This document shows positions 1 through 24,775 of a stretch of 29,207 bases of DNA, piece by piece (position 1 is the stretch's first letter; each line of letters starts with the position of its first letter). Below the pieces are notes generated by a model. That model ran no database searches, was not told where the DNA came from, and was given only the letters and a program-made list of their open reading frames with translations. This DNA comes from a virus: the IMG/VR virus record IMGVR_UViG_3300024261_000119, positions 1 to 29,207 of that record, one strand, 5' to 3'. The translations under genes and the position numbers were made by a program.

Positions 1-1638
1 ATCACAAACTACTTTGAAGTCTGTGAGTCCTCTACGTCCCTGTACTTCCCTCAAAAAAGGAGTAACAATATTAACAAATTGTGACCTTGTGAATTCATCA
101 TTGAATTCAAACAACATTGCTTTAGCCGCAACAGCAATTGCTTTCTCAAGAACAATGAATAACCTACGAACATTAATACGATCAAATGCTGTTGGTGTAA
201 TTTGCATAGTTCTATCACCAAAAAGAATAACACCAGCACCCTGTTGTGTCGTAATAGGATTAATACCTAGTTGATAAATCTCATCACGATCTGGTTTTGT
301 TGGTTCCCAAGAAGATTTTACAATATTTTTAATTACACCTCTTGTCAAACCAGCAGGTGACCACCAAGCATCATTCGTGAAATCAGTTCTTGCACAAAGA
401 CCAGCAATGTCACCGTTCATTGGAACATAAACAAAAATGTCACGATAACGATCATATTGATATTTCCATGCACCATCCATAATAGCATAATTAGAAGAAC
501 CGAGTGCAGTACTATCTGCTTTAAGTGCAGTTACTGCTGCATCGTTACTAGCAGGAGTAACAACAGATGCTCTGTTAGGAGATACAAATGCAACACAATC
601 TTTTCGTTTTGATGCAATATTGTCAATGATGTGACTTCCAACAACAGTGCTACCAGCACCAGACATTATCAGAGTAACATCAACAGTATCAGCATCCACA
701 TAAAGATCATATGCCGCTGTTAAATCAGCATTAACTAAATCAGAACCATCAAGACCGGCAGTTAAACTACCACCAATAATCTGATCTGCTGCAGCAGCTG
801 CATTTAATCTTTTAAAAGTTGTACCAGATTTACTTGCACCTGCATCAGCTGCTGGAGAGGCATCAAGTGAAGATTCGGTAATTTTATTTCTGGAACCTAA
901 CCAAATATACTTTGATTCATTTCTCAAAACATTTCCTACATAATTTGATGAACCATTAAATTTTTTCGCATCAATTGCTTTACTTACATAACCATGTGCT
1001 TCTACTACTTCTCCAGGCTCACCCGTAAACAAACCATCCTCATCAATAACAAGAACGTGCATTTCATCATTTGATCCACCAACAGAAGCAACGTCAGCAG
1101 ATGTTGCAGGAGCACTGTCAAAAGATGCTAAGAATAATTTTTGGTCTGTTGTTCTTGCACCTGCTGCTGTTCCTTCGGCTGTTGCCCAACCTGTTCCATC
1201 TAGTGCAATCGCTTTTAAACTATTTCCTCTTACGCCGGGATATTTGGCAATGAATAATGTGTCACCAGCTGTTAAAGCACTGAGATCACTTTCATAATCA
1301 TCTCCATTTTGTACAACTGTACTATTTGTTCCAGTAAAACCAGCGTTATCATCTCCAACTACAGAGTTTCTTGCATCGTCTTTAACATTTCTAACTACCA
1401 AAAGATTATTTGAATATGCTAGGTAATTAGCAGCTGACCAAAAATGTTCAAACGTATTAGTGGTTGGTTCACCGAATGTTTTTACTAAATCATTTTCTGT
1501 TGTAATTCTTACTCTTTCTAAAACTGGGCCCCATTGAAATTGACCCGCTACTGCACCAATACTTGTTGCAACATTAGGTACTACAGTAGTTAAATCTCTT
1601 TCAGTAACTACTACGCCTGGGCTGACTTGAAATGGCAT
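1..1638 (-). CDS. 18: Tail sheath protein gp18 (C-terminus cut by window edge)
   Basis: The frame opens at an ATG at 1638 and stays open for 546 codons to base 1, so the C-terminus lies outside the window. The N-terminus MPFQVSPGVVVTERDLTTVV is the typical start of T4-like sheath proteins. The distal part contains WWSPAGLTRG, an aspartate-rich segment before QLGINPI, and GVILFGDRTM, which are hallmarks of the conserved sheath domain in contractile tails. The middle (roughly residues 150-330) is rich in Ala, Ser and Asp and corresponds to the surface-exposed variable domains. The protein polymerises around the tail tube and contracts on infection. The start is preceded by AAAGGAG at good spacing. 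It follows terminase gene 17 by 64 bases, the same order as in T4. Confidence 0.95.
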   Translation of the reverse strand, partial: MPFQVSPGVVVTERDLTTVVPNVATSIGAVAGQFQWGPVLERVRITTENDLVKTFGEPTTNTFEHFWSAANYLAYSNNLLVVRNVKDDARNSVVGDDNAGFTGTNSTVVQNGDDYESDLSALTAGDTLFIAKYPGVRGNSLKAIALDGTGWATAEGTAAGARTTDQKLFLASFDSAPATSADVASVGGSNDEMHVLVIDEDGLFTGEPGEVVEAHGYVSKAIDAKKFNGSSNYVGNVLRNESKYIWLGSRNKITESSLDASPAADAGASKSGTTFKRLNAAAAADQIIGGSLTAGLDGSDLVNADLTAAYDLYVDADTVDVTLIMSGAGSTVVGSHIIDNIASKRKDCVAFVSPNRASVVTPASNDAAVTALKADSTALGSSNYAIMDGAWKYQYDRYRDIFVYVPMNGDIAGLCARTDFTNDAWWSPAGLTRGVIKNIVKSSWEPTKPDRDEIYQLGINPITTQQGAGVILFGDRTMQITPTAFDRINVRRLFIVLEKAIAVAAKAMLFEFNDEFTRSQFVNIVTPFLREVQGRRGLTDFKVVCD

Positions 1639-1702: not shown

Positions 1703-3319
1703 TTAATTTACTGTTTCCCATATTGTTCCATCTGAATCTATCTCATATTCTTTCTGATTTAATCCATTATCAATAACACCAAAAGGTGTCGTTAAATCTT
1801 CTAATTGATTCATTTGATTTTGATATAAATTATCTCTTATATTTTGATTACTTAAATCTTTAAAATATTGTTGGTCTATTAACCAAGCAAATAAAACTAA
1901 AGTGATTACCAAATCATCATTAGTTCCCTCTTCGCCTGAAAAGGATTCACCAATAGCAATAAAGGTTGTTAGTTCTGTTATAATATCATAATCATTAAAT
2001 AAAAGTTTATTTTCTTCAATTAGTGATTTTAAGTTTGAACAACCCAACTTTTTCATTGTTTTGGTTGTTCTTACACCAAATGCAGATTCTCTCTTAGCAC
2101 CACTACTTAATTGCTGTCCATGCCTACCATACCATGATGTTGAATATAAATGCTCATACTCTAAATCATGGTGTAAAACGTCAGCAACTTGAGAACCAAT
2201 GTCATTTATTTCTACTAAAACATATGCATAATTATATCTCTTTCCAATAGTATTTATAATATTGGGAAAGTGTAGGGGTGCGACGGTGTTATTTCGGTAT
2301 TTAGCCACTATTTTGTACGGAATTTCGGTAATATCAAACACCGAAAAGGCGGAATAGTCCTGTCCTTGACCTCTAGCTACGTCAACGGTGATAGTATATG
2401 TATGTCCATCAACCGGCTCTTCATGTACGTCTAACCCATCTCTAGTGAATAATGGTGCATTATATGACATTTCTTGCAGTCTTTCGGTAGAAATCAGAGT
2501 ATTTGTAGAACCTAAAAACTCTGCTTCATACTCCTGTCTGAAAGCATCTTCACCAATAGTCGATACAGTTCTCTTATACCATTCGTCATCTCGGCCCGGA
2601 ACATTTGACCAATGAACCTTGAAAGGAAAAAATGTATTATTTCCCTCTTCAGCATCATTCCAGAATTTATAGAATAGATTAAATCCGTTTGGAGTAGATA
2701 CAATAATAACCTTTGTTTCTTTACCAGACGAAATTGTAGGGTAAACTGAGCGAATAAATTCGTTTGCAATATGTCTCTGAACATGAGCAAATTCATCTAG
2801 GAGAATACAAGAAAATGAAAATCCACGAATAGCACTTGAAGATGTGGAAGAAGCAATAACTTTACTTCCATTCTCAAGTTCCATAGAACCTTTATTCCAT
2901 TCTCTTAAACCTTGCTGGAGAAACTTTGGGAGATGCTGATAGGATGTTTGAACACGGCCGAGGATTTCACGAGCAGTGATTGCCTTGTTAGCTAGAATAC
3001 CAACAATTTTTTCTTGATTAAAAAGAATATAGTGTAATAACCAACCGATAGTAGTTGTAGTTTTACCAACCTGTCTACCTGTTTTTACAATGACATTTCT
3101 ATTTTCTGTTATAGCGTTTACTAAGTTTTTTTGAAAATCATACATCTTAAAAGGAACAAGGCCTTCATCAACGTGCACAATCTTCACATAATTTTCTAAA
3201 AAATAGATAGGATCATCTTTACACTTAATGTATTCCTCTATCTCTTTTTTAGTAAACTTATGTGGTACACCTAAACCTTTTAAAAGGTTATTTCCTAAAT
3301 AGGAATTATCTTCTGGCAT
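1703..3319 (-). CDS. 17: Terminase large subunit gp17 (packaging ATPase and nuclease)
   Basis: This 538 aa protein is the motor that pumps DNA into the prohead and cuts the concatemer. The N-terminal ATPase shows a Walker A motif TGRQVGKTT near residues 80-88, a Walker B motif CILLDEF near 171-177 with the catalytic Glu after the Asp, and a coupling motif STPNG near 208-212. The C-terminal RNase H-like nuclease has Asp313 in TVDVARG, Asp321, Glu370 in VLVEINDIG and the NDDL pair near 467-470, matching the three catalytic acidic positions of T4 gp17. T4 gp17 is longer (about 610 aa). The gene starts one base after the stop of gene 16, so the two are probably translationally coupled. Confidence 0.97.
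   Translation of the reverse strand: MPEDNSYLGNNLLKGLGVPHKFTKKEIEEYIKCKDDPIYFLENYVKIVHVDEGLVPFKMYDFQKNLVNAITENRNVIVKTGRQVGKTTTTIGWLLHYILFNQEKIVGILANKAITAREILGRVQTSYQHLPKFLQQGLREWNKGSMELENGSKVIASSTSSSAIRGFSFSCILLDEFAHVQRHIANEFIRSVYPTISSGKETKVIIVSTPNGFNLFYKFWNDAEEGNNTFFPFKVHWSNVPGRDDEWYKRTVSTIGEDAFRQEYEAEFLGSTNTLISTERLQEMSYNAPLFTRDGLDVHEEPVDGHTYTITVDVARGQGQDYSAFSVFDITEIPYKIVAKYRNNTVAPLHFPNIINTIGKRYNYAYVLVEINDIGSQVADVLHHDLEYEHLYSTSWYGRHGQQLSSGAKRESAFGVRTTKTMKKLGCSNLKSLIEENKLLFNDYDIITELTTFIAIGESFSGEEGTNDDLVITLVLFAWLIDQQYFKDLSNQNIRDNLYQNQMNQLEDLTTPFGVIDNGLNQKEYEIDSDGTIWETVN
2251..2258 (-). promoter_or_regulatory. Possible internal late-promoter octamer in gene 17
   Basis: The minus strand reads TATAAATA, the T4 late-promoter core, inside the terminase coding sequence and about 610 bases before gene 18. 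T4-like phages do use intragenic late promoters. The same octamer also occurs by chance in AT-rich coding repeats of this window (for example 21743-21750 and 21869-21876), so this is weak. Confidence 0.2.
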
Positions 3320-4561: not shown

Positions 4562-5575
4562 CTATAAATCAGTTATTGTTGTTGTAGTATTTCTTGGTGC
4601 ATCATCAGGGTCAGCAGTTTCTGGGTCTGGTTTAATATCAATATTAACTAACTGAATATCATCATCATTAAAACTTGTTCCAGAATTAACATCTACTTCT
4701 CTGATTATTCCAATATCAGATGTTGGGCCATACAGATATCCTTGGACTGTAAATGATAGAGTATGAGTTAAAGACCTTCTAGTAAGAAAATCACCCTCAT
4801 AATCATCCTCTGTTGAAATGCCGTTTAACACAATAGGTATGTCTCTTTTAATACCAAGTGTTTTCATTTCATTTAGAGTAACATGATACTCTGGTGTAAA
4901 ATATGGTAAAATCTGTTCTAGTATCTGAGCTCCATCATCACTATTCTTAACCATGATAGATAAATCAATCTCAAAGTTATATGGTACAGGTGTATAAGCT
5001 GTAACTAAAGTATTAAGATTAGCATCAAGATTTGATTTTGCTGTTGCAGTTACACCACCTGCTGGTGCATCAGCTATAGTAACAGTCGGTGTATTTTCAT
5101 ATTGTGTTCCTGCAACATCAAGGGTTATAGAAGTTACAACACCTTCGGTAATCGTTGATGTAGCCGTTGCTGTTATTCCAGTTGACGATGACGGAGGTGC
5201 TTCAATTGTTATTGCAGGTGCTACTGTATAACCAGAACCACCATTTATTATTTCAATATTATCAAGATTACCAAGAGGTTTTATTTCTTTTATTTTTTTC
5301 GTTGTCTGTAATTTTCTTGTTGCATCATACGTCATTGTTGTTATTTCAAATGACAATCTTGGAAGTCTAATACCAACAGTTTCTTTTTCTTCATCAATAG
5401 GCCCTTCTAATTTTGTTAGGTATTTCTGTGCAGGGCCATATGAAATAGGAACTTTAAATTCACTTTGAACATCACCGTCTGATTCTACTCTCTTTACTTT
5501 TATATCATTGAATACTGTACCAAATAATATAACAATATTTCTGATATTCTTATTGTAAAAATATTTTCCAAACAT
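4562..5575 (-). CDS. 15: Tail sheath stabiliser and completion protein gp15, with an inserted repeat domain
   Basis: The N-terminus MFGKYFYNKNIRNIVILFGT and the segments VPISYGPAQKYLTKLEGPID, ILEQILPYFTPEYHVTLNEM and LTRRSLTHTLSFTVQGYLYG follow the T4 gp15 pattern. The protein caps the top of the contracted or extended tail and joins it to the neck. I chose the ATG at 5575 because its A is also the last base of the gene 14 stop codon (TAATG), with GAGGGAGA upstream; a longer ATG-initiated reading from 5596 lacks these features. The product is about 337 aa against 272 in T4. The excess is an insert of about 85 residues (roughly 105-190) with two degenerate GGSGYT..P.ITI-type repeats. Confidence 0.9.
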   Translation of the reverse strand: MFGKYFYNKNIRNIVILFGTVFNDIKVKRVESDGDVQSEFKVPISYGPAQKYLTKLEGPIDEEKETVGIRLPRLSFEITTMTYDATRKLQTTKKIKEIKPLGNLDNIEIINGGSGYTVAPAITIEAPPSSSTGITATATSTITEGVVTSITLDVAGTQYENTPTVTIADAPAGGVTATAKSNLDANLNTLVTAYTPVPYNFEIDLSIMVKNSDDGAQILEQILPYFTPEYHVTLNEMKTLGIKRDIPIVLNGISTEDDYEGDFLTRRSLTHTLSFTVQGYLYGPTSDIGIIREVDVNSGTSFNDDDIQLVNIDIKPDPETADPDDAPRNTTTTITDL

Positions 5576-6429
5576 TATAAGTCTCCCTCGCTCCACGGAT
5601 CAACTTCACTGAAATCTAAAATATTATCTCCATCAGTTTCAAATATTTTATTATCATCATATTCAGTAGATGAACTAACTTGATCGTCAACAGAAATTAA
5701 ATCAAGTGAAGTATTACTTTTAGCACCTACAACATCTGTGCCGGTTGCAAATGAACCTGATACTCTATAAACATTCAATTTATTTCCTTCTTGACTTGCA
5801 ACTTTAGCAGTAACAACTGAGGTAGCTATTGATGAACCTTGAAATACTATCTCACTAACTTGATATGCTTCTGAACCAGCCAATGTTAATTCAATTGTAG
5901 TTGAATTCTCTCTTTCGATTTTATCAAATATAGCACCCTGTTCAATTTCTTCAATATCAAAAACTTGATTACTATATCTAAATAACTCACAAGTCAATTC
6001 ATATACTGTATTTTTTCCTAAACTATAAAAAGGTTTTTCGTGTTCAACAAATTTAATTTCGTATAAACCTTTTCCAAGAGGAAAATAAATCAAGTCACCT
6101 TCTTTTGGTGCAGCATTAAAAACTTCTTCTGTAAATCTTTCTTTATTTACAATCAATATTAATTCATCTTGAACATCCAATCCAAATTTTGAAACCATAT
6201 CACCAGCACCACCAAAACCTTCAGGTGTGTTTATATACATCTCAACTTCTCTTGTTTTAGTAAATTTAGATAATGCATCTTCATTAAGAATATCATCACG
6301 TTTTACTTCTGTTCTTTCAAGATACAATACATCAATTCCATTTATTTGAATTACTTCTTTGGTTAAACTATTAAGTAATTCTTGTTGTGGAAATGAATTG
6401 AAATTTTTAAAAAATTGATTAGTTGGCAT
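5575..6429 (-). CDS. 14: Neck protein gp14
   Basis: This 284 aa protein begins MPTNQFFKNFNSFPQQELLN and contains INGIDVLYLERTEVKRDDIL and the segment around YINTPEGFGGAGDMVSKFGL, all typical of T4-like gp14. It works with gp13 to complete the filled head and attach the tail. Residues roughly 190-250 (around FQGSSIATSVVTAKV and GSFATGTDVVGAKS) look like a separate small beta module between the conserved core and an acidic C-terminus. The gene starts one base after the stop of gene 13 and its own stop overlaps the gene 15 start by one base, so 13, 14 and 15 are likely translationally coupled. Confidence 0.9.
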   Translation of the reverse strand: MPTNQFFKNFNSFPQQELLNSLTKEVIQINGIDVLYLERTEVKRDDILNEDALSKFTKTREVEMYINTPEGFGGAGDMVSKFGLDVQDELILIVNKERFTEEVFNAAPKEGDLIYFPLGKGLYEIKFVEHEKPFYSLGKNTVYELTCELFRYSNQVFDIEEIEQGAIFDKIERENSTTIELTLAGSEAYQVSEIVFQGSSIATSVVTAKVASQEGNKLNVYRVSGSFATGTDVVGAKSNTSLDLISVDDQVSSSTEYDDNKIFETDGDNILDFSEVDPWSEGDL

Positions 6430-6430
6430 A

Positions 6431-7198
6431 TTAACCTACATATCCATCTGCTGGAAGTTCATATTTAAGACTTACTTCTTCTTCTATCTGTCTTATTTCT
6501 TCAACAGCTTCATCATAAATTGTTTTACCATCAAGTGTAATACCGCCTGGCAATACAACACCTTGAAACTTTTTCAGATTCTCTCCCCATTGTCTTTTGA
6601 TTAAAGCGGTTGTATATTTTTTCAAAAACATATCATTCCAAACTTCTGGATAAACAGCAGGGTCTAATGCTCTATAAGCTTCAATAACTAAAATATCATC
6701 TACACTAAATTTTTTTGACCAATCAGCTTCTAAATAAACTCTATTCTGTTTTCTATTAAACATCATCGTTGGTGCAATAGAAAACAATTGTTCGATTTCA
6801 GAAAAATTTGTTAATGTCATACTCCATTGAATCAATGAAGAACCAGAAAAATTATTTAAGTCGTTTAGTCTTAACTGATACTCTTCATTAAAAAACCCAC
6901 CCTGAAACGAATCAAAACTAGGAATAGGTAATACCCTAACAACACTAATAACAGGCCCACCATCAGGTGATACAGGATCACCCATAGGAATATATTCATT
7001 GTCAATATCAGTTTGTGTAATAATGTGTTTTAGAAAAACTTTTTCCACACCATCAAAATGATATTCTTGAAAAAATTCTAATGAATCATCAACTCTTTCA
7101 TCTAGCTGATCGTCATCTATATTGATTTCAATTACAGGTTGTCCTAATCTCCTTAAACAATAATCTATCAATCCCTGTCTTGAAGTTACACTAGCCAT
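6431..7198 (-). CDS. 13: Neck protein gp13
   Basis: This 255 aa protein starts MASVTSRQGLIDYCLRRLGQ and continues with PVIEINIDDDQLDERVDDSL and EFFQEYHFDGVEKVFLKH, the conserved N-terminal helical region of T4-like gp13. It contains the KYTTALIKRQWGENLKKFQG segment and ends in a helix-rich tail (VEEIRQIEEEVSLKYELPADGYVG). It helps seal the head and form the collar. A ribosome binding site AAAGGAAAA precedes the ATG. It opens the gene 13-14-15 group. Confidence 0.92.
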   Translation of the reverse strand: MASVTSRQGLIDYCLRRLGQPVIEINIDDDQLDERVDDSLEFFQEYHFDGVEKVFLKHIITQTDIDNEYIPMGDPVSPDGGPVISVVRVLPIPSFDSFQGGFFNEEYQLRLNDLNNFSGSSLIQWSMTLTNFSEIEQLFSIAPTMMFNRKQNRVYLEADWSKKFSVDDILVIEAYRALDPAVYPEVWNDMFLKKYTTALIKRQWGENLKKFQGVVLPGGITLDGKTIYDEAVEEIRQIEEEVSLKYELPADGYVG

Positions 7199-7213
7199 GC
7201 TATTTTCCTTTTA

Positions 7214-7468
7214 TTACTGTGGGGTGATTCCCATTGTTTCCACTTGCTTTAAAATATTTTCCTTATCTTCATTAGCAAGAAGTAGTTGTGCTTCAATCTG
7301 AACCATTTTTCCATTAAGTTCATTCACTTTATTTTGAAGAACATTGATGAGTTTTTGTGCATAATTCAATTGATTCTGCAATTGTTCTTTTGTTACTTCT
7401 GGATCAACATTTTGTTTTGCTAATGGTGCTCCTTGTGGTTTTTCAGTCGCTTCTTCTTTTTCAGCCAT
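7214..7468 (-). CDS. Small coiled-coil protein of unknown function
   Basis: This 84 aa polar protein has a disordered, charged N-terminus (MAEKEEATEKPQGAPLAKQ) followed from about residue 28 by a long heptad-like helix (QLQNQLNYAQKLINVLQNKV and onward). No catalytic motif or membrane span is seen. It sits 15 bases before gene 13 and is preceded by AAAGGAG, so it is probably expressed with the neck genes. It could be an assembly chaperone or virion component; this is inference from position and shape only. Confidence 0.75.
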   Translation of the reverse strand: MAEKEEATEKPQGAPLAKQNVDPEVTKEQLQNQLNYAQKLINVLQNKVNELNGKMVQIEAQLLLANEDKENILKQVETMGITPQ

Positions 7469-7506
7469 TTCATTAACTCCTTTAATATAGAATTATTAAA
7501 TTGATA

Positions 7507-7797
7507 TTATTTCCCTCTTTTTTTATTTGCAGATTCATCAGCTCTTGCAATACGTTCTTGATCCGCTTCTAAACCATACCTAGTTCTTATCATTGTATCA
7601 AGTTTTAAAATATCTGTTTGTAATACTCTTATTCTATCAATGAGTTGAACGAGTATATCTGTTTGATAACCTATCTTTCCTGTTAGTGAATCTTGTAACC
7701 ATTTTACAATTTTCCAAAAACCCCACCCAATCAATAGCAAACCAACAATCGGCACACCTAATTTTTCAATTAGGTCAGTGGTTTCGTTTAATTGCAT
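7507..7797 (-). CDS. Single-span membrane protein, holin-like
   Basis: This 96 aa protein has a short polar N-terminus, one hydrophobic segment at about residues 13-33 (LGVPIVGLLLIGWGFWKIVK) and then an amphipathic charged helix ending in basic residues. One membrane anchor plus a cytoplasmic helix resembles small BhlA/UviB-type holin-related proteins, but T4-type holins look different and no lysis gene adjoins it. It could equally be a membrane-anchored assembly factor. It is the first gene after the terminator at 7831-7871, with AGGT upstream as a weak ribosome binding site. Confidence 0.7.
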   Translation of the reverse strand: MQLNETTDLIEKLGVPIVGLLLIGWGFWKIVKWLQDSLTGKIGYQTDILVQLIDRIRVLQTDILKLDTMIRTRYGLEADQERIARADESANKKRGK

Positions 7798-7830
7798 TTC
7801 TTTTACCTATATGTAATATGTATAACTCCT

Positions 7831-7871
7831 AAAAAAAATAAAAGGGGACAGGGAAAATCCCCATCCCCTTT
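7831..7871 (-). terminator. Rho-independent terminator after the 407 aa fibre gene
   Basis: On the minus strand AAAGGGG pairs with CCCCTTT and, after a three-base internal loop, GGGA pairs with TCCC around a three-base loop. The hairpin (7841-7871) is followed by a long T tract (7831-7845 read on the minus strand). It lies about 40 bases after the stop of the fibre gene and separates the fibre block from the neck block. Confidence 0.85.
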
Positions 7872-7910
7872 CAGTGAATCTACTCATGTTGTTTCTAAAA
7901 TAAACTAAAC

Positions 7911-9134
7911 TTAGAAAGTACCGCCGTCCATAACGTCAGTCCATGCTGGAGCGCCATTAGAGTCGATAGCTAGTTTCTGTCCAGCAGAACCAGCTGTCAA
8001 TACTGTCATGTCAGCTGTACCAGCACCAACTAGGATGCCATTACTAGCAACAGCTTGAAGACCAGTACCACCAAGAGTTACAGGCATTTCAGACTGAACA
8101 CTCCATGTTCCACCTGATACTGTACCAACACCAGTTGAACTAGAGGTATCAATACCGAGTCCACCAAAAGTAGAAGAAACAATATCAGCATTCCATGTAC
8201 CAGTAGTGATTGTTCCTAAACCTGTGATATTGGTTTGAGAAGCAGTTGTCAATGTACCATCAATTTCGCCGAAAGCAACATTACCCAGAGAACCAGAGAA
8301 AACTTCAGAAGTATTAGTTGCGTCAGCAATATACTTGAATTTTGAATCTGAATCATCGTAACCAAACCAACCAGTTTTAGCAGCACCATCGTTGTATTTG
8401 AATTCAATACCACGGTCTTTATTATCGTCTGTACCATTCTCACCGATAACAAAAATTGGATCAGCAACAGAAACGGTTGTTGAATCAACAGTTGTTGTTG
8501 TACCAGTAACAGTCAAGTTACCTGAAATAGTAACATTATTTGTTAGACCGATTGTTACTGCAGCACTTTCAACACCATTTGCAGAAACAGCAATTTCATT
8601 TGAAGTACCTGTGATTGTTGAAATGTAGCTACCAGTTGTGTCTGTACCTAGAGCAACTGAATTAGCTTGTACTGTGTTAACTGAAACTGTACCATCAGTA
8701 GCAATAGAAACATCACCTGACAATGCTTTATTATCCCATGAATCTGTACCATCATAAATCAGCACGTGTCCACCTGCAGGAGCTGAGATATTTGTATCAG
8801 ATGCTGATGAAATAGCATTTGTTCCAGAAAGAACTTGACGATCAACATATGCTGTTGTTGCTAGTTTAGTTGAGTTATCATCTGCTGAAACTGTAGTTGC
8901 TGTAGGAGCTCCTGTTAGAACTGTGTTGTTTAGAATATCTGTAATGAAATCAGATGAATCTGTACCACCAATTTTACGCACAACAGCACCAGCTGATGTC
9001 ATATCACCAATGTACAAACAACCAGCACCACCACCTGTACCGTGGTCAACCCATGCCAATTCACCTTTTTCAAGTGATCCTGCAACAGGAGAATTTGAGC
9101 CAGACGACCTTCTAATTTGAATTTGATTAGCCAT
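7911..9134 (-). CDS. Tail fibre or adhesin-type structural protein (407 aa)
   Basis: The N-terminus MANQIQIRRSSGSNSPVAGS followed by LEKGELAWVD and CLYIGD resembles the small N-terminal domain found on many phage fibres (Mtd_N-like). The rest is a Gly, Thr, Ser and Ala-rich beta-repeat protein with no Cys-rich or enzymatic motif. It carries the cassette DNSTKLATTAYVD also found in the 275 aa fibre at 21474-22301, and repeats of LGTITTGTWNADI type. It ends DGGTF, similar to DGGVF on the neighbouring 76 aa protein. A strong terminator follows. Most likely a fibre or whisker-like appendage. Confidence 0.8.
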   Translation of the reverse strand: MANQIQIRRSSGSNSPVAGSLEKGELAWVDHGTGGGAGCLYIGDMTSAGAVVRKIGGTDSSDFITDILNNTVLTGAPTATTVSADDNSTKLATTAYVDRQVLSGTNAISSASDTNISAPAGGHVLIYDGTDSWDNKALSGDVSIATDGTVSVNTVQANSVALGTDTTGSYISTITGTSNEIAVSANGVESAAVTIGLTNNVTISGNLTVTGTTTTVDSTTVSVADPIFVIGENGTDDNKDRGIEFKYNDGAAKTGWFGYDDSDSKFKYIADATNTSEVFSGSLGNVAFGEIDGTLTTASQTNITGLGTITTGTWNADIVSSTFGGLGIDTSSSTGVGTVSGGTWSVQSEMPVTLGGTGLQAVASNGILVGAGTADMTVLTAGSAGQKLAIDSNGAPAWTDVMDGGTF

Positions 9135-9201
9135 TTAATTTTTCCTTTAAATATTTGTTGTTAGGTTTATCACATTTAACATTGTAATCATAAAATAAAA
9201 A

Positions 9202-9273
9202 TCAAGCCCTACTCCATGCCATTGTATAACTTAAAACCCACCACTTATTTTCTTTAAAATACACCACCATCAT
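9202..9273 (-). CDS. Possible 23 aa Trp-rich micropeptide
   Basis: An ATG at 9273 opens MMVVYFKENKWWVLSYTMAW followed by SRA and a stop. It overlaps the last 20 bases of the 76 aa gene in another frame and fills most of the gap to the 407 aa gene. The aromatic-rich composition differs from the surrounding fibre genes. Only comparative conservation could show that it is real. Confidence 0.3.
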   Translation of the reverse strand: MMVVYFKENKWWVLSYTMAWSRA

Positions 9274-9484
9274 TATCGTTGATAACTTCTATGTCTATTG
9301 GAACAAATTTTCCCGTTGCAGCATTATAAACCAAAACATCATTATCATTTAATCCAGTTTTATTTACATCTGATAAATCTACCAGAGGAGGAACATCACC
9401 AGTACCAGAACCAGATTGTTGAGCATTAGACACTGCCGGAGAAAATACTGTATTTCCTGTGTTTCTATTAACTTGAATTGGCAT
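9254..9484 (-). CDS. Small fibre-associated protein (76 aa)
   Basis: This small acidic protein starts MPIQVNRNTGNTVFSPAVSN, has a short linker rich in Gly and Ser, then VDLSDVNKTGLNDNDVLVYN and AATGKFVPIDIEV, a pattern found near the C-terminus of many phage fibre proteins (LSDV.....DG..LVYN...G.WV). It ends NDNDGGVF. The start overlaps the stop of the upstream 194 aa gene by one base (TGATG), indicating translational coupling. It may attach to or cap a neighbouring fibre; function is not known. Confidence 0.7.
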   Translation of the reverse strand: MPIQVNRNTGNTVFSPAVSNAQQSGSGTGDVPPLVDLSDVNKTGLNDNDVLVYNAATGKFVPIDIEVINDNDGGVF

Positions 9485-10068
9485 CAGTCAGTTGTTATTT
9501 CGGGTCTAATTGTTATTACCCCTTGAATAACCCTTTCTTTTGGTTGTTCTAAATATCCACTTCCACCATCAACTATATTTATAACAGTTATTTCTCCACC
9601 AGCAACTGTTGCAGTTGCAGTTGCAGTTGTTCCGCCATCAGAAAGTGGATCAGCTATTGTAATAGTTGTAGCTTCAGTATAACCAGTACCACCATTAGTA
9701 ACTTTAATATTTGAAATAACACCATCGGAATTTACAAATGCTATAGCTGTAGCTTCATTACCATCACCACTAATACCTATTGCTGGTGTTCTTCTATCAG
9801 TTGCTTCAACATCATACAAATATTTACCAGATTTTAAGTTACTAGTCTGTTTAGGAGTTAATGCCAATGTCATATTACCTGTAACAGCATTCAATATGTT
9901 TATTGACATAAATTCCTTCACAGCAACTGATCTATAATGGCGTTTTATTTTAGATTCAAGAGTCCAGCCAGTTATATCGCGAGTACTGCCATTATTATTT
10001 AACATATTAATGTCAGCGTCCCAACTTTGACCAGCATTTATATCTTGATTCCATTTTACTGTTGCCAT
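9484..10068 (-). CDS. Structural protein with baseplate-type core and inserted GGxGY repeats (194 aa)
   Basis: Residues 1-95 (MATVKWNQDINAGQSWDADI through SGKYLYDVEAT) and the last 20 (RVIQGVITIRPEIT) form a pattern common in phage baseplate or upper-fibre proteins, where YDVE is followed shortly by a G.....P.VT strand. In this copy the two parts are split by about 75 residues with two repeats around KVTNGGTGYTEATTITIADP and VDGGSGYLEQP. The same repeat type is inserted in gp15 of this window. The gene is 15 bases from nothing recognisable upstream, and its stop overlaps the start of the 76 aa gene. Confidence 0.75.
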   Translation of the reverse strand: MATVKWNQDINAGQSWDADINMLNNNGSTRDITGWTLESKIKRHYRSVAVKEFMSINILNAVTGNMTLALTPKQTSNLKSGKYLYDVEATDRRTPAIGISGDGNEATAIAFVNSDGVISNIKVTNGGTGYTEATTITIADPLSDGGTTATATATVAGGEITVINIVDGGSGYLEQPKERVIQGVITIRPEITTD

Positions 10069-11140: not shown

Positions 11141-14100
11141 TTAACCAAGTGCAATTGCCATTGTTACAGCCGTTGGATCAACTTCAGTCATTGTAGGTGT
11201 CGCCCAAACTCCATCACCACGCAAGAATGTTGTATTATTAGCTGTACCTGTCGCTGACAACATTGTAGGTGTAACAACACCAGCAGAAATCTGGATGTTA
11301 GAGATTGTTCCACTAACATCACCACCAACTGCCGTATTACCAACATTGGTTGAATCCGCTGCCCATTCAGGAGCAGTTGCACCAGAGTTGATTGTCAATA
11401 CTTGACCAGCTGTACCTTTTGCAAGTCGAACATAATCAGTTCCGTTATAATACATAACGTCACCTGCTGCATCAGAACCAAGTGCAATGTGAGAACCTGT
11501 TACAGAGTTATTAGCAAGTTCAGAAGAACCGATTGCATTAGCATTGATTTGGATGTTAGAGATTGTTCCACTAACATCACCACCAACAGAAGTTCCACCA
11601 ACATCTGTAGAATCAGCAGACCATGCTGGGTCATTTGCTCCCATTGTGAGAACTTCACCAGCTGAACCTTTTGCAAGTCGAGCATAATCTGTACCATTGT
11701 AATAAAGGATATCACCACGAGCATCAGAACCCATTGCAATCTTAGTTCCATCAACTGCATTAGCTTGAATCTTAGCTGTTCGTACTGCACCATCTTGTAA
11801 CTCAGAGAATGTAACACTATTAGCTGCCAAGTCCTCTGCAACGATAATATCCAATTGGATTTTATCAGAAGTAATTGAGTTTGCACCCAATTTAGCATTT
11901 GTAATAGCACCGTCTGCAATTTCTGTAGTATCAACAGCACCAGCAGAAATCTGAATGTTAGAGATTGTTCCACTAACATCACCACCAACCGATGCATCAC
12001 CAATAGTTGTATCAGTATCATCAACGAATGAAAGTACGCCGTTACCATCGGTAGAAAGGATTTGACCATTCGTACCATCTGTTACTGCAAGTTTCGCAAT
12101 CGTAACTTGATTATCAGCAATCTTAGTTGTTGTTACTGCGTTTGTTGCTAACTTGGAGTTAGAAACAGCTGTACCAGCAATCTTATTATTTGTTACAGCA
12201 CTGTCTGCGATGTCTGCTTCGACAATCGTACCATTAACGATATGAGCTGATGTAACTGAGTTATCAGCAAGTGCATTTCCGTCAACTGAATCATCAGAAA
12301 TATGTCGTGCTTCAATTGCATCATTTTTAATATGGTCTGAATCAACAGAACGCAATGCATCATTAGAAGCATGGTCTGCCAATTTAGCAGAAGTAACTGA
12401 GTCATCTTCAAGTTTTGCTGTAGTAATATTTGCATCAACAATGCTTGCTGTTACTACTGCATTACTATCCAACTTAGCTGCTGTTACAGAATCATCTGCC
12501 AACTCTGTAGTATCAACTGCACCTGCAACAATCTGTGCATTTGAAACAGTACCAGACAAATCACCACCAACTGAAGTAGCACCAACATTTGTTGGATCAG
12601 TAATAAATGATAATACACCAGAACCATTAGTAGAAAGAAGTTGACCTGCTGAACCATCTGTAACATCAAGTTCAGTAATACCAACTGCATTCGTAGCAAT
12701 CTCTGATGTATCAACTGCGTTAGCAGCAATCTCATTTGAAGTTACAGCATTCGCATTAATCTGAATGTTAGAAACTGTTCCACTAACATCACCACCAACA
12801 GAAGTTCCACCAACGTCTGTGGAATCTGACGCCCATTCAGGAGCAGAAGCACCAGAGTTGATTGTCAATACTTGACCAGCTGTACCTTTTGCAAGTCGAG
12901 TATAATCAGTTCCATTGTAATAAAGAATATCACCAGCTGCATCACTACCAATTGCAATCTTAGTTCCATCAACTGCATTAGCTTGAATCTTATCAGTTGA
13001 AACTGCATTGTTAGCAAGTTCTGCAACTGTAATTGCATTGTTCGCAACGTCTTCAGCAACGATAACATCAAGACCTAAATGAGCAGAAGTAATAGAATTA
13101 TTAGCAATCTCTGTACCACCAACCGCACCAGCAGCGATTTTCGCATTGGTTACTTGATCGTCACCAATATTTGCTGTTTGTATTCCACCAGCAGCAATAT
13201 CACCAGTAACAATTGTTCCATCAAGAATTTTTTGTGATGTTACAGCACCATCTGCAAGTTTTGATTCAGTAAGAGAATTGTCAAGAATCTGTACAGCATT
13301 CAATTCAAGATTTTGTGCATCATCATTTCTACGGAATGAAGAATTTTGTAATTCTATATCTGTAAGAACATTAGAATAAATTTTAAAGTTTGTTAACCAA
13401 CCACTACCAGATGTTAATCCTTCACCATGAAAGAATTTAATAGTATAAGAACTTGTTGAAGTATTAGCTGGAAGAACAACAGTTGTATCAGGAAGATTTG
13501 CTGAAAGACTACCGTTTTGTCCCATATGTAGTCGGTTAGACTTCATAGCAACGACATTACGGAAATCTTCATGACTTGTATTAGAAAATCCTGTTGCAAA
13601 AGGATCAGAATTTAGTTGACTATTACCAGAACTAACAACCTTCAATGATGAATTACTCAATAATGTTACATAGTTAGCATTTGATGCATCTTGATAATGA
13701 TAAACAGGTGTTCCAGTTGTATTCAATGGAGTAGCATCAATTAAAAATGATGCACCAACATCAAAGTTCCATTTTCCTTCTGTATCTTCAACAAATGCAA
13801 CATCAGCTGTTCTTGTTACGGAAACAGTTGTAGTTGCAATATAAGAAGTAGCATAGGCTTTCTCTTCAACTTGCATACCCCATAGATAAATACCTTGAGA
13901 ACTAGTAGTTGCATAAGTATTTGAAACACCATTATCAGGACGTGCTTTCATATACAATTCTGTATCTGAATTAGCATCTGCTGTAAATGTTACTTTACAA
14001 CGATACCACCCATTCGCATATGCTTGAATTGATGCCGAGTCAACAGTTCCACCAGATGCACCAGTTTCACCAGTTGATAAGTTAAATGTTTGTGCGTATG

Positions 14101-14593
14101 TTCTACCTGTTTGGTCATTATCCTTATTGGAAAGTTCCAAAAAATTTAATTCTTTTTTCTTAGCAAATACTGATACTGTATATGTAGTTCCACTAGTAAA
14201 AGTCAAACCTTGTTGTCGAGCTGCAATGATACCAGTTGTTGTTGATGAAGCAACTAGTTGGTCAGCATTCGTTGCTCCGTCAGGTGACTTAATAGCATTA
14301 GTACTAACACTACCTGTATTGGTTAAGCTGGATGTTGTTGTAATCCACGAAGCATTACCTAAATCATGTGACTGCAAACAAGTATTTGTTGATGACTCTT
14401 CTAATAACCAACCTCTATGTCTACCAATATTAGTAGGGTCAGAAAAATAATCCTGTCTGATAGTATTTGCTGGAATGGTTTCAATCAAACCAATAGAATT
14501 AATTCTAGTAGCTGAAGAACTTCGTGAAAAATTAAGTTCAACGGGTATGATACCAGATGAATTTAATGCTAGTGTACTCTTAACTATTGACAT
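11141..14593 (-). CDS. Large repetitive tail fibre (1150 aa)
   Basis: The N-terminal 430 residues hold two probable beta-sandwich domains. The first runs from FSRSSSATRINSIGLIETI through GWLLEESSTNTCLQSHDL, PDGATNADQL and a GWYRCKVTF strand, a pattern common to phage carbohydrate-binding-type domains. The second spans about 270-430 and resembles a LamG or concanavalin-like fold. From about 440 to the end there are dozens of short units of the form NAVT..KIAD, interspersed with longer repeats SVGGDVSGT.SN.QI, GD(I/V)(L/M)YYNGTDY.RLAKG and STNGSGVLSF. This architecture builds a long trimeric fibre shaft. It ends AVTMAIALG. The ATG at 14593 follows AAAAGGA. The repeats make the gene prone to internal recombination. 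Confidence 0.88.
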   Translation of the reverse strand: MSIVKSTLALNSSGIIPVELNFSRSSSATRINSIGLIETIPANTIRQDYFSDPTNIGRHRGWLLEESSTNTCLQSHDLGNASWITTTSSLTNTGSVSTNAIKSPDGATNADQLVASSTTTGIIAARQQGLTFTSGTTYTVSVFAKKKELNFLELSNKDNDQTGRTYAQTFNLSTGETGASGGTVDSASIQAYANGWYRCKVTFTADANSDTELYMKARPDNGVSNTYATTSSQGIYLWGMQVEEKAYATSYIATTTVSVTRTADVAFVEDTEGKWNFDVGASFLIDATPLNTTGTPVYHYQDASNANYVTLLSNSSLKVVSSGNSQLNSDPFATGFSNTSHEDFRNVVAMKSNRLHMGQNGSLSANLPDTTVVLPANTSTSSYTIKFFHGEGLTSGSGWLTNFKIYSNVLTDIELQNSSFRRNDDAQNLELNAVQILDNSLTESKLADGAVTSQKILDGTIVTGDIAAGGIQTANIGDDQVTNAKIAAGAVGGTEIANNSITSAHLGLDVIVAEDVANNAITVAELANNAVSTDKIQANAVDGTKIAIGSDAAGDILYYNGTDYTRLAKGTAGQVLTINSGASAPEWASDSTDVGGTSVGGDVSGTVSNIQINANAVTSNEIAANAVDTSEIATNAVGITELDVTDGSAGQLLSTNGSGVLSFITDPTNVGATSVGGDLSGTVSNAQIVAGAVDTTELADDSVTAAKLDSNAVVTASIVDANITTAKLEDDSVTSAKLADHASNDALRSVDSDHIKNDAIEARHISDDSVDGNALADNSVTSAHIVNGTIVEADIADSAVTNNKIAGTAVSNSKLATNAVTTTKIADNQVTIAKLAVTDGTNGQILSTDGNGVLSFVDDTDTTIGDASVGGDVSGTISNIQISAGAVDTTEIADGAITNAKLGANSITSDKIQLDIIVAEDLAANSVTFSELQDGAVRTAKIQANAVDGTKIAMGSDARGDILYYNGTDYARLAKGSAGEVLTMGANDPAWSADSTDVGGTSVGGDVSGTISNIQINANAIGSSELANNSVTGSHIALGSDAAGDVMYYNGTDYVRLAKGTAGQVLTINSGATAPEWAADSTNVGNTAVGGDVSGTISNIQISAGVVTPTMLSATGTANNTTFLRGDGVWATPTMTEVDPTAVTMAIALG
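11381..11429 (-). repeat. 49 bp direct repeat inside the 1150 aa fibre gene, copy 1
   Basis: These 49 bases are identical to 12851-12899 and lie in the same reading frame, encoding a shared piece of LAKGTAGQVLTINSGA. Similarity continues with scattered changes for about 50 more bases. A third, more diverged copy lies near 11640-11700. Confidence 0.9.
12851..12899 (-). repeat. 49 bp direct repeat inside the 1150 aa fibre gene, copy 2
   Basis: Identical to 11381-11429. The two copies are 1470 bases apart, a multiple of three, so crossing over between them would remove 490 codons in frame. Confidence 0.9.
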
Positions 14594-14816: not shown

Positions 14817-15116
14817 TTAAGGCTTACGATGAGCAGCTTTAACAGATGCAATATGTGCTTGATAAACAGTCATACCTTGTTCACCAATCATTTCTAGTTG
14901 TTCTGACCATATACCATAACCACCATCTGCCATTTTTGCAGTACGCTTTTCTTCCCATGATTTTTCTGGTACAACATAAGGCGTTGGTGTATTGCCAGCG
15001 TCAATCCATTCTTGAATCATTACCCTATGGCGATTACCCATGTCATCAGGAACAAATACATTATCGTTGACTTGATAACTGCCATCTTCCTGTAGTGCTA
15101 CTTTTGCGATTTCCAT
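14817..15116 (-). CDS. Small fibre-accessory protein (99 aa)
   Basis: This protein starts MEIAKVALQEDGSYQVNDNV and ends with YGIWSEQLEMIGEQGMTVYQ followed by AHIASVKAAHRKP. It is clearly paralogous to the 103 aa protein at 15248-15559: both share a .VA/IQLQEDGSY N-terminus, a GNRH..M motif, K.R..ADGGYG and a C-terminal QLEM.GEQG....AHI..VK. The C-terminal pattern also recurs more loosely in the accessory proteins at 19874-20263 and 22317-22721. Its location after a lost fibre gene suggests a role in folding or attaching the distal fibre. That role is inferred. Confidence 0.75.
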   Translation of the reverse strand: MEIAKVALQEDGSYQVNDNVFVPDDMGNRHRVMIQEWIDAGNTPTPYVVPEKSWEEKRTAKMADGGYGIWSEQLEMIGEQGMTVYQAHIASVKAAHRKP

Positions 15117-15247: not shown

Positions 15248-15559
15248 CTATACAGGTTTAGGGTGATTAGTTTTAACTGTCTGAATGTGAGCCATAAATG
15301 CTACCTCACCTTGCTCACCGAACATTTCTAACTGTTCTGACATGGTTCCATAGCCACCATCGGCAATAGACTTGAGTCGTTTGTCGAGCCAAGTTTCTAC
15401 ATAAGTTTCTACATAAAGCGCGACAGGCAAAACAGTTGCTCCATCAGCTATGTCCTCCAATACCATCTTATAGTGCCGATTGCCTGGGGAATTAGGCACG
15501 TTCAAATCATCGGCTGTGTAACTACCATCTTCTTGTAATTGTATTTTTGTGAAATTCAT
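15248..15559 (-). CDS. Small fibre-accessory protein (103 aa)
   Basis: This paralogue of the 99 aa protein starts MNFTKIQLQEDGSYTADDLN, has GNRHYKMVLEDI in the middle and the C-terminal stretch YGTMSEQLEMFGEQGEVAFM, then AHIQTVKTNHPKPV. Residues about 50-58 repeat VETYVET, a small tandem duplication visible in the DNA. It starts 9 bases after the stop of the 497 aa fibre, so it forms a fibre-plus-accessory pair. A chaperone or attachment role is likely from position, not shown by sequence. Confidence 0.75.
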   Translation of the reverse strand: MNFTKIQLQEDGSYTADDLNVPNSPGNRHYKMVLEDIADGATVLPVALYVETYVETWLDKRLKSIADGGYGTMSEQLEMFGEQGEVAFMAHIQTVKTNHPKPV

Positions 15560-17645: not shown

Positions 17646-18380
17646 TTAACCGAACTTAATACAGACGTATTCAATATTCATAGTGCCTGTGGGTGATCCA
17701 GTTTTTGTCCAAGTGATGGTAAACCCATCTGCATCCATCTGTTTCAATATCCCTTCTATAAAATTTGATCCGGGCGTTGTACCCTCAGATCTAATTCGAT
17801 TTGCGTTAGCCTCCCAAGATCCGGCAGTCTGGGCCTCGTTATGTTGCCATGACATTTGTTCCACACCATGCCCCGGAGGCATAAGATAACCAAAGTTCAG
17901 ACCACCAGAAGCATCATTACCCACACCACAGTTAAAAATTACCATGTCAGGAGTAAACCCACATCCTGCGAAGGATTGATCCGCACTAGCATCAGCCCTA
18001 TTCTTAACAGCAATGCCTAGCATATAAAATCCAGCACTTGACGAACTTGCAACCGGACTCCCACCACTCACCAGACTATGCCCAACCTGAACAACCGTAT
18101 CAGCCGCAACAGCAGTAAAGGTTAACCTATCTCCTGCCGCAGTCGTGAAGTTAGCCGCACCTGATAAGACCAGACTTGCACCGTTGGTCAGCGTGACAAT
18201 GCCATCAAACTGTAGAGTGAACGTCCTTCCAGCATCAACGGTAAATCCTGTGATACCTGTCGTGCCTGTAATGTCGAAGTAAGAACCGTCTGTTCCAACA
18301 GCCAGCGTACCAGCCGAGGCTATATCAGCCCCCTTCGTGCCATCTTCTTGTAATGCCCCTGTTACTTTTGTCGTAGTCAT
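17646..18380 (-). CDS. Tail adhesin-type protein (244 aa)
   Basis: The start MTTTKVTGALQEDGTKGADI leads into SAGTLAVGTDGSYFDITGTT and TLQFDGIVTLTNGASLVL, a stretch seen in many phage fibres where a short knob follows the attachment helix. The distal half (GFYMLGIAVKNRADASADQS, then GFTPDMVIFNCG and FGYLMPPGHGVEQMSW) looks like a compact beta domain of the kind used for receptor binding. The start overlaps the stop of the 118 aa gene by four bases (ATGA). MTTTKV and its leader resemble the start of the frameshifted gene at 19680-19867. Confidence 0.75.
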   Translation of the reverse strand: MTTTKVTGALQEDGTKGADIASAGTLAVGTDGSYFDITGTTGITGFTVDAGRTFTLQFDGIVTLTNGASLVLSGAANFTTAAGDRLTFTAVAADTVVQVGHSLVSGGSPVASSSSAGFYMLGIAVKNRADASADQSFAGCGFTPDMVIFNCGVGNDASGGLNFGYLMPPGHGVEQMSWQHNEAQTAGSWEANANRIRSEGTTPGSNFIEGILKQMDADGFTITWTKTGSPTGTMNIEYVCIKFG

Positions 18381-18733
18381 ATTGGTTTATTCCCCCTTAA
18401 AAGAATTTTAGCGTCATAGATTGCTTGCTCTGCAGGAGAATCTGCTACTCCTGCCATTACCTCTGTAATAAAATCTTCACGGTTGCGGTTCATAGGTGAG
18501 CTTCTAATGTCAACCTTCCATTGCTCCGAAGCTGTTAGAGGGGGTGGCAAAGCATCCAAATCTCTTTCAACCCTATTCCTATAATTACCAGCCAAGACAG
18601 AAACATCATATTCAGCTTCCCATCTAGCCACCTTCGCCAGAACGTGAGCTTCCTCTTTAGCGTTATCAGCCCAAGTCTGTCCGTCTTCTACTATGTGGTT
18701 TAATACATCTAATTGTCTTTGAGTTAATATCAT
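18377..18733 (-). CDS. Small fibre-locus protein, full-length member of a tandem duplicate pair (118 aa)
   Basis: The first 27 residues (MILTQRQLDVLNHIVEDGQT to ADNAKE) are identical to those of the 64 aa gene immediately upstream. The remainder (EAHVLAKVARWEAEYDVSVL and on) is helical and looks like an intact soluble protein. The C-terminus LRGNKPI is read through DNA that is nearly identical to the end of the 129 aa gene at 19874, where another frame gives KGE and a stop. This suggests that the end of this gene was altered by a frameshift. Function unknown. Confidence 0.7.
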   Translation of the reverse strand: MILTQRQLDVLNHIVEDGQTWADNAKEEAHVLAKVARWEAEYDVSVLAGNYRNRVERDLDALPPPLTASEQWKVDIRSSPMNRNREDFITEVMAGVADSPAEQAIYDAKILLRGNKPI

Positions 18734-18924
18734 TGGTTTAACAAAGCTCCTGAAAAATAGGTTGAGCCGGGAGAAGTATCTTGAATATCTGCATTGTTAG
18801 AGCCTCCCGTCATTTGAAGTACAACATGAGCCGTATCACTCGCCTCTTTAGCGTTATCAGCCCAAGTCTGTCCGTCTTCTACTATGTGGTTTAATACATC
18901 TAACTGTCTTTGTGTTAATATCAT
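18730..18924 (-). CDS. Chimeric partial duplicate of the 118 aa gene (64 aa)
   Basis: Residues 1-27 match the 118 aa protein exactly, then the sequence switches to an unrelated ASDTAHVVLQMTGGSNNADI and QDTSPGSTYFSGALLNQ. The second half, rich in Gly, Ser and Asn, looks like the end of a fibre-type protein. The likely origin is a recombination between a copy of the small gene and the 3' end of a lost fibre gene. The stop overlaps the next start by four bases. It may not be functional. Confidence 0.5.
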   Translation of the reverse strand: MILTQRQLDVLNHIVEDGQTWADNAKEASDTAHVVLQMTGGSNNADIQDTSPGSTYFSGALLNQ

Positions 18925-19873: not shown

Positions 19874-20263
19874 TTATTCCCCCTTAGGATAAGCGGCTTT
19901 TACAGCCCGAATGTGGTCTACCCAAGTAGTCGTGGCGTTGATGATGTCGTGGTACTGCATATCTAGCTGATCCACAATAGAACTATAAGCCTCTTTTCTT
20001 TTAATATCGTAGGGTTTTGCATCCTCAATAGCAGTCTCGTCAATAGCAAACTGAGTATCGTTAGGTGTTAATGTTTTATTAACACTATCTACCACCAGAT
20101 AATCAAACATATTGCCTTGGAAAGTATCTAATACATAGAAAGCATTAGGGTAGTTATCTACCACTTTAGCTACATGAGCAATAGCCTCTTCCTCTGTGTC
20201 TACATCCTGATATTTTGTTATTTTATTATTTTCATCAAAATCTACTATTACTTTATATGTCAT
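19874..20263 (-). CDS. Small fibre-accessory protein (129 aa)
   Basis: This acidic protein starts MTYKVIVDFDENNKITKYQD and carries the C-terminal pattern YSSIVDQLDMQYHDIINATT followed by TWVDHIRAVKAAYPKGE. The same pattern recurs in the accessory protein at 22317-22721 and, loosely, in those at 14817 and 15248. It follows the 226 aa fibre by 12 bases and so forms a fibre-plus-accessory pair. In other marine phages I recall small proteins with this ending beside fibre genes; a fibre folding or capping role is an inference. Confidence 0.75.
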   Translation of the reverse strand: MTYKVIVDFDENNKITKYQDVDTEEEAIAHVAKVVDNYPNAFYVLDTFQGNMFDYLVVDSVNKTLTPNDTQFAIDETAIEDAKPYDIKRKEAYSSIVDQLDMQYHDIINATTTWVDHIRAVKAAYPKGE

Positions 20264-22316: not shown

Positions 22317-22721
22317 TTATGATTTAGTATATTTATTTTTTACAGTATCGATATGAGTTTCCCAAACAGCAGTTTCATTTTTTTTATCCCAATAAATCAT
22401 ATCTAACTGTTCTCCTAATGAACCATATTCAGCTGTTCTTTCTCTAATATACAAAGGAGTTTTTTCAAGTTCATCCTGTTCAGCTTTTAACCTTACTTGT
22501 TCTTGTTTTACTTTTTCTTCACCATGTAAATTTATATATGATTGATAATCACTAATATCATTTATAATTTTATTTTCTTTACCAGACTTATATTCTATAT
22601 GTCCAGTACTACCATTCCATTGCATTGCATGAATATCTTCATCAATATCAAATTCAAATACTAATAGTTCACCATCCACAATAATGGTTTTATCTATTGG
22701 TATAATAGTTAATGTAGTCAT
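22317..22721 (-). CDS. Fibre-accessory protein with HAMQW domain (134 aa)
   Basis: The N-terminal half (DKTIIVDGELLVFEFDIDED then IHAMQWNGSTGHIEYKSG) fits a small phage domain with the pattern VDG.......IHA.QW.G..G.IEY, often next to fibre genes. The C-terminal half is helical and ends with YGSLGEQLDMIYWDKKNETA followed by VWETHIDTVKNKYTKS, the accessory ending of this window. The start overlaps the stop of the oxygenase by four bases (ATGA), so the two are translated together. Confidence 0.78.
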   Translation of the reverse strand: MTTLTIIPIDKTIIVDGELLVFEFDIDEDIHAMQWNGSTGHIEYKSGKENKIINDISDYQSYINLHGEEKVKQEQVRLKAEQDELEKTPLYIRERTAEYGSLGEQLDMIYWDKKNETAVWETHIDTVKNKYTKS

Positions 22722-24437: not shown

Positions 24438-24767
24438 TTATGATTTAGGATATTTTAATTTTACAGCTTGTCTTTTAGCAGTTACCTCATCCCACATTGT
24501 AGAGTCGCCTTCTTCTTTCTCTGCTAGTGCTACTGTTACCTCATCAATAGAAGGATATTCTACTCTTCTGCGGTCTTGATATGTTAATGATGCTTCATAT
24601 ATATCATTTAACATTTGTACAAATTCTTCATTCGTTACTTCTTTTTCTTCAAGATCAGCTGCATCATATCCACCATTAACTGAATTCTGAATCATTGTGC
24701 CAGGTACACAACCAGTTTGTTCTTCTAAAAATTCTCCTGTAGATTTTACTACGCATATATATTTCAT
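24438..24767 (-). CDS. Small fibre-accessory protein (109 aa)
   Basis: I place the start at the ATG at 24767 (MKYICVVKSTGEFLEEQTGC) because TTAGGAGA lies 5 bases before it; an ATG 18 bases upstream overlaps the end of the fibre gene and lacks this. The C-terminal half has YQDRRRVEYPSIDEVTVALA and ends TMWDEVTAKRQAVKLKYPKS. EYPSID resembles the YGSLGEQ and YSSIVDQ segments of the other accessory proteins. It follows the 461 aa fibre and precedes the collar fibre, and is likely part of the fibre assembly set. Confidence 0.75.
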   Translation of the reverse strand: MKYICVVKSTGEFLEEQTGCVPGTMIQNSVNGGYDAADLEEKEVTNEEFVQMLNDIYEASLTYQDRRRVEYPSIDEVTVALAEKEEGDSTMWDEVTAKRQAVKLKYPKS

Positions 24768-24775
24768 ATTATCTC

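Follow-up and report, generated by a model that had tools for sequence, protein, structure and literature searches.

Decoration of phage structural proteins

Promiscuous immunoglobulin (Ig)-like domains of phage structural proteins were described by Fraser et al. (2006); in the summary given in PMC9230969, they are small β-domains that are swapped among unrelated virion proteins, thought to lie at the surface and to bind carbohydrate weakly. They are mostly added at protein ends. The extra domains of tail sheath proteins lie away from the tube, and a role in adhesion has been proposed for them, as has the possibility that they cement the tail (PMC9230969). In phages of the lactococcal 936 group, Dit and proteins of the tail and neck carry sugar-binding modules, two of which bind host cells (PMC6669499). 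Here we describe a further module of this general kind, the GGxGY domain, in a 29,207-base stretch of DNA that makes up the whole of IMG/VR virus record IMGVR_UViG_3300024261_000119 (hereafter, the window) and derives from a marine T4-like phage. Homologous copies of the domain are inserted into two unrelated proteins, the tail terminator gp15 and a 194-residue collar-type protein, and the six strands of one copy are a circular permutation of those of the other.

Like the Ig-like domains, the module occurs sporadically in unrelated virion proteins, but it matches no Ig-like Pfam family (Ig/Big/FN3/PKD), is made up of two ~38-residue repeats with six strands in permuted orders, and sits inside hairpins rather than at the ends favored by the Ig-like domains. 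As with the carbohydrate-binding modules (CBMs) of the 936 phages, several neck and tail proteins bear modules of a single kind, and insertion may be internal, as it is there in Dit; the 936 modules match known CBM structures and two bind cells (PMC6669499), whereas the GGxGY module has no CBM match and is known here from its sequence. T4 gp15 (PF16724; PDB 4hud, 9mkb) has the same core, which is of full length on both sides of the insert, and differs in having a short loop (residues 91–98) where the window protein has 87 residues. The core of the 194-residue protein resembles T5 p132, called a landmark of T5-like phages (PMC10038345), and the BppU N-terminal domain in fold and, distantly, in sequence; p132 differs in being without an insert. 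Five PHROGs (701, 5342, 19630, 460, and 17885) contain the repeat, but these are whole-protein clusters named for the host proteins (head closure, tail fiber). Whereas promiscuous decoration domains of phages are well-known, the permuted registers, a second insertion site in gp15, and the uncatalogued module itself are new here. The surprise lies in the permuted registers, the module being of an ordinary kind.

Homologous inserts in two unrelated proteins

gp15 is identified by a match to Pfam family PF16724 (T4-gp15_tss; E 9.6e-72, 241.5 bits, cut-off 25) that falls into two stretches, one on either side of the insert. It also matches phrog_227 (E 3e-78) and, by profile, PDB entries 4huh/3j2m (E about 1e-40), and a Foldseek search with its model finds 9mkb_AB (E 2e-13). 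In the profile alignment, the insert takes the position of T4 gp15 residues 91–98. The start is best read as the ATG at 5575, giving 337 residues, because close relatives begin MFG.YFYN there and because it overlaps the gp14 stop codon by 1 nucleotide; the GTG at 5596 in the open reading frame (ORF) list would add seven residues that are unsupported. The residues originally given as 105–190 are accordingly 98–183 in this numbering, and the insert as delimited here spans residues 99–185.

The 194-residue protein as a whole matches nothing in Pfam. Its residues 5–91 match phrog_1084 (E 2e-15) and phrog_3304 (E 2e-10), there is a profile match to p132 (PDB 7qg9, E 9e-4), and its model returns 8hqz/7qg9 in Foldseek (E 1.9e-5 to 1.2e-4), the Ig-superfamily fold of the p132 kind; it also matches a phiM12 BppU N-terminal protein in BFVD. 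In relatives of ~112 residues, the segments that flank the insert run continuously as YDVE..(hairpin)..ERVIQG.

The original prediction held that one GGxGY repeat domain splits a conserved core in both proteins, and this proved correct. The two inserts share 47% identity over 62 residues, and, with a profile made from gp15 inserts only, that of the 194-residue protein reaches 49.7 bits; the cores of the two proteins gave no BLAST match to each other at E≤10. The inserts are homologous, and their hosts are unrelated by BLAST. That the likeness merely reflects convergence of low-complexity Gly-, Thr- and Ala-rich β sequence is barely credible. The inserts are indeed compositionally biased, and an artificial consensus used as a tblastn query matched nothing in the phage collection, where a natural copy found 24 records, a failure probably due to low-complexity masking. 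However, 2000 shuffles of the 194-residue protein's insert, identical to it in composition, reached at most 10.1 bits (mean 0.7) against the same gp15 profile, and the order and spacing of the strand motifs are kept across the 62 aligned residues.

A permuted two-unit module

The domain consists of two ~38-residue units, each of three strands, a, b, and c, with the motifs IxIxNGGSGY, APTVTI, and GATATAxV, respectively. Read with a single-unit profile of 38 positions, the gp15 insert is abc-abc, two whole units, and that of the 194-residue protein is bc-abc-a, a half, a whole, and a half unit (Table 1), after which b is replaced by the next strand of the core. Both add up to two units in circular order, and the second insert is a circular permutation of the first. 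AlphaFold2 models agree with the profile in giving six strands to each insert and a different starting strand: 104–111, 122–124, 137–143, 146–154, 165–167, and 178–183 in gp15; 96–99, 107–112, 118–125, 135–139, 149–156, and 159–167 in the 194-residue protein.

Neither the permutation nor its variants are confined to the window. The leading half unit of the 194-residue protein is seen again in three other loci (L012, L013, and L033) at 5.1–5.6 bits, and the bc-abc-a order recurs at the second gp15 site of L293 (15, 39, and 10 bits). The third order, c-abc-ab, is found in 15 cellular proteins, mostly of Chryseobacterium, and is probably also present at site 2 of the gp15 of L176, where the first c strand falls below threshold. 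Arrays of about two units account for 113 of 158 viral and 63 of 137 cellular arrays; longer ones occur, some of them odd-numbered. The simplest reading of the strand order is a pseudo-2-fold, six-strand domain in which three equivalent turns could each serve as the opening point.

Table 1. Features of the window discussed in the text (all on the minus strand)
Feature	Coordinates	Strand	Basis or remarks
Sheath-like protein	1-1638	-	Named from sequence and gene order
Terminase-like ORF	1703-3319	-	Named from sequence and gene order
ORF in gp16 position		-	Named from sequence and gene order
264-residue protein		-	phrog_8198 match; adjoins gp15 in block order
gp15, T4-like tail terminator/sheath stabilizer, 337 residues	4562..5575	-	PF16724, phrog_227, PDB 4huh/3j2m, Foldseek 9mkb_AB
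GGxGY domain at site 1 of gp15, residues 99-185 (87 residues), abc-abc	5021..5281	-	3-4-residue loop in insert-less relatives
Second repeat of the gp15 insert (a-b-c)	5021..5137	-	Unit profile positions 1-38, 50 bits
First repeat of the gp15 insert (a-b-c)	5144..5263	-	Unit profile positions 2-38, 43 bits
gp14, head-closure protein	5575..6429	-	phrog_460, E 1e-71
194-residue protein, T5 p132/BppU-N-like Ig-fold, collar-type	9484..10068	-	phrog_1084, phrog_3304, PDB 7qg9, Foldseek
GGxGY domain in 194-residue protein, residues about 93-176, bc-abc-a	9541..9792	-	Half/whole/half unit; absent from ~112-residue relatives
194-residue protein insert, trailing half unit (a)	9541..9591	-	Unit profile positions 2-18, 12 bits
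194-residue protein insert, whole unit (a-b-c)	9604..9720	-	Unit profile positions 1-37, 33 bits
194-residue protein insert, leading half unit (b-c)	9739..9789	-	Unit profile positions 17-35, 3.3 bits

Gain, loss, and alternative occupants of the loops

Comparison of gp15 homologues reveals an all-or-none pattern at site 1. The loop is 0–5 residues long in 128 of 165 distinct sequences and 82–101 residues long in 36, every one of which (36/36) contains the GGxGY domain; the remaining sequence has a 59-residue loop of another kind. Prevalence figures given here are biased, coming from similarity-ranked scans and the best 80 loci, with some loci chosen as repeat carriers. Thus the region is not common to all relatives of gp15, and where present it is related to the insert of the 194-residue protein. 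Its G, Y, P, and A positions are invariant among gp15 inserts. Of 1970 phage records that match gp15, not one covers 80% of the window protein, which is consistent with absence of the site-1 insert from deposited isolates at that sensitivity.

A tree of the gp15 core, with insert columns removed, requires at least five changes of presence, all forced by well-supported branches; a 120-row tree requires seven, of which six are forced. The clearest natural experiment is a trio in which L263 has no insert, L306 has one at site 1 (84% identity to L263 gp15), and L293 has one at a second, C-terminal site (79%). In the 194-residue protein family, the flanks are joined by a short hairpin in L086, L087, L023, L024, L027, and others. 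Strict pairing of the two inserts is contradicted by L023, L015, L024, and L027, which have the gp15 insert and lack that of the 194-residue protein.

Repeated gain and loss at one gp15 site, together with the many virion-protein and cellular carriers described below, indicate that the domain shifts between loops over evolutionary time. That much of the proposed mobility is supported; recent copying between the gp15 and 194-residue protein genes is not, because, in genomes with both, the two inserts are no more alike than they are across genomes. The closest matches of each insert are its own orthologues, and hence the two acquisitions appear to be separate and not recent.

The same loops receive other material. 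In L016, L040, and L045, the hairpin of the 194-residue protein's relatives holds a module of a second type (G-F-GE-VTG-TSGATG; here GTF..DEVITGTTSGATG) in place of the GGxGY domain, and modules of this second type are also found in gp14 and in one gp13-type protein (L176:446-1402). The gp14 carriers include close relatives of the window (L008, L011–L014, L032, and L033), and the orthologues of L033, L032, and L008 match the second-module profile. The window's own gp14 gave no match to that profile, but toward its C terminus it seems to hold a copy that has diverged. Longer gp15 proteins of L115, L130, L136, L143, and L168 have another ~60-residue stretch (Gx-I-I-E...RG...H..G) near site 2, and a 512-residue gp15 (L334:1465-3036) combines a GGxGY array at the second site with an unrelated 59-residue insert at site 1. 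The neck and tail of L176 are heavily decorated, with modules in the gp13-type protein, at the second site of gp15, and in the gp18 sheath, which has two two-unit domains (L176:446-7530). Because different modules occupy the same sites, the loops of gp15 and the 194-residue protein look like docking points for several kinds of module. The original prediction had overlooked this competing module type, as well as the circular permutation and the second site in gp15.

Distribution and catalogue status

A scan with the repeat profile found at least 600 stretches in viral contigs, 337 of them confirmed among the matches listed, and at least 585 in a bacterial and archaeal collection, with 286 confirmed among the matches listed. 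Viral carriers include gp14 (phrog_460), gp15, the gp18 sheath (phrog_23), baseplate wedge and fiber proteins, a podovirus-type tail protein (phrog_376), and the head closure protein Hc3. Named isolates that carry it include Synechococcus phages as well as Escherichia phage HeidiAbel_Bas97 (PQ850606) and Salmonella phage PT1, in both of which it lies in the tail sheath. Among cellular proteins, we observed fusions to a molybdopterin-dehydrogenase-like protein and to Kelch repeats (L257:1976-4831 and L185:5835-8183); in Chryseobacterium (e.g. L190:3818-4945), the domain is near the N terminus of a ~375-residue protein without a Pfam match.

No catalogue entry for the module was found. A Pfam scan of 12 inserts gave only two chance matches, with no Ig-like or CBM family; NCBIfam has no family for the module, a profile of the insert matched no PDB sequence, and a literature search for the repeat motif returned nothing relevant. 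Foldseek searches with whole-protein models found mainly relatives of the cores. Both inserts match phrog_701, phrog_5342, phrog_19630, phrog_460, and phrog_17885.

What the inserts may do

The domain is dispensable, recurrent, and in frame on neck, tail, and collar-type proteins, and we regard it as likely to be a mobile decoration module of phages. The mechanism that we propose begins with an autonomous, closed six-strand β-domain formed by two equivalent ~38-residue, three-strand units. As the units would be equivalent, the entry and exit of the chain could fall at any one of three matching turns, such that a single fold might be accommodated by various host loops in the order abc-abc, bc-abc-a, or c-abc-ab. 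If gp15 tops the tail with a hexameric ring, as in T4, then the ring would bear six copies, projecting from a hairpin of each subunit; the 194-residue protein, if like T5 p132, would form a fiber-anchoring ring of up to twelve copies, with the domain projecting from a hairpin of its Ig fold. Display at the surface is likely, because an ~80-residue domain is present or absent in a loop of 3–4 residues while the flanking core is unchanged, and because the extra domains of sheath proteins are located away from the tube (PMC9230969). There the domain might bind cell-surface or environmental polysaccharide weakly and multivalently, helping adsorption. By analogy with the systems above, we tentatively favor this adhesive role over the alternatives below; the account as a whole is, on balance, probably the best explanation.

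Several observations weigh against it. The Pfam scan of 12 inserts detected no binding residue, ligand, or carbohydrate-binding family. The confidence of the gp15 model is moderate (mean predicted local distance difference test score 72), the leading half unit of the 194-residue protein is weak when taken alone (3.3 bits), and the existence of odd-numbered arrays means that a two-unit closed fold is not obligatory. Furthermore, in T5 the loops of collar protein p132 are engaged mostly in protein-protein contacts within the virion (PMC10038345), and the insert of the 194-residue protein may therefore not be free. These contacts make a real rival of the proposal that the inserts are structural spacers or cement, bridging subunits (gp15-gp14-sheath, or collar and fiber) and stabilizing the tail or setting fiber geometry with no binding to cells. 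The concentration of carriers among neck, sheath, and collar-type proteins would fit such a role, as would the contact of the T4 gp14 C-terminal arm with gp15 (PMC12270204) and the cementing considered possible for extra sheath domains (PMC9230969). However, close relatives lack the domain at the very same site, two different gp15 sites are used, and the domain also occurs in unrelated fibers, podovirus tails, and cellular proteins that have no partner in common, and we consider cementing unlikely.

More doubtful still is the notion that the inserts are near-neutral passengers, recombined into exposed loops and drifting until they are lost, with no selected function. Such passengers would be gained and lost frequently and could be interchanged with a different module at the same hairpin, both of which are seen. 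Against this, the motif remains recognizable and in frame across long divergence of the core, with the invariant positions noted above, and the fact that it is prevalent at two loci in a single lineage speaks for some benefit.

Gene context

The minus strand of the window contains a T4-like tail block, in the order sheath-like protein, terminase-like ORF, ORF in the gp16 position, 264-residue protein, gp15, gp14, and gp13-type adaptor. Beyond the adaptor lie small ORFs, fiber-like proteins, and the 194-residue protein, which thus sits in a fiber-rich block. The fiber-like proteins at 11141-14593, 23287-24426, and 24776-26161 have in common runs of NAVTxxKIADxxVTxxKL-type repeats. At least five short ORFs between fiber-like genes (14817-15116, 15248-15559, 19874-20263, 22317-22721, and 24438-24785) share by eye a C-terminal pattern, (Y)GS..EQLDM...W..HI..VK..YPK, and are possibly paralogous fiber-assembly proteins. 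The neighboring ORFs at 18377-18733 and 18730-18924 open with identical residues, MILTQRQLDVLNHIVEDGQTWADNAKE, in what looks like a partial tandem duplication.

Concluding remarks

One small domain decorates several parts of one tail machine, including the terminator ring; we know of no report of a decorated tail terminator ring. The module has no entry in Pfam, NCBIfam, or, by sequence, PDB despite hundreds of viral and cellular occurrences, and it therefore links unrelated PHROG families unnoticed and leads automatic annotation astray. The gp15 trios, with the domain, without it, or with it at the other site, make its function directly testable, as does Escherichia phage Bas97, whose sheath contains the module. 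The three circular orders make the domain a candidate scaffold for loop insertion. That it is a permutation-tolerant plug-in, a 2-fold pseudosymmetric six-strand domain of an uncatalogued family, spliced by natural recombination into virion proteins in all three circular orders (abcabc, bcabca, and cabcab), with the shape of the recipient loop determining the order, is a proposal that we hold to be evenly poised. If true, this would be a natural example, and a widespread one, of circular permutation by insertion phase, as well as an uncatalogued protein family.

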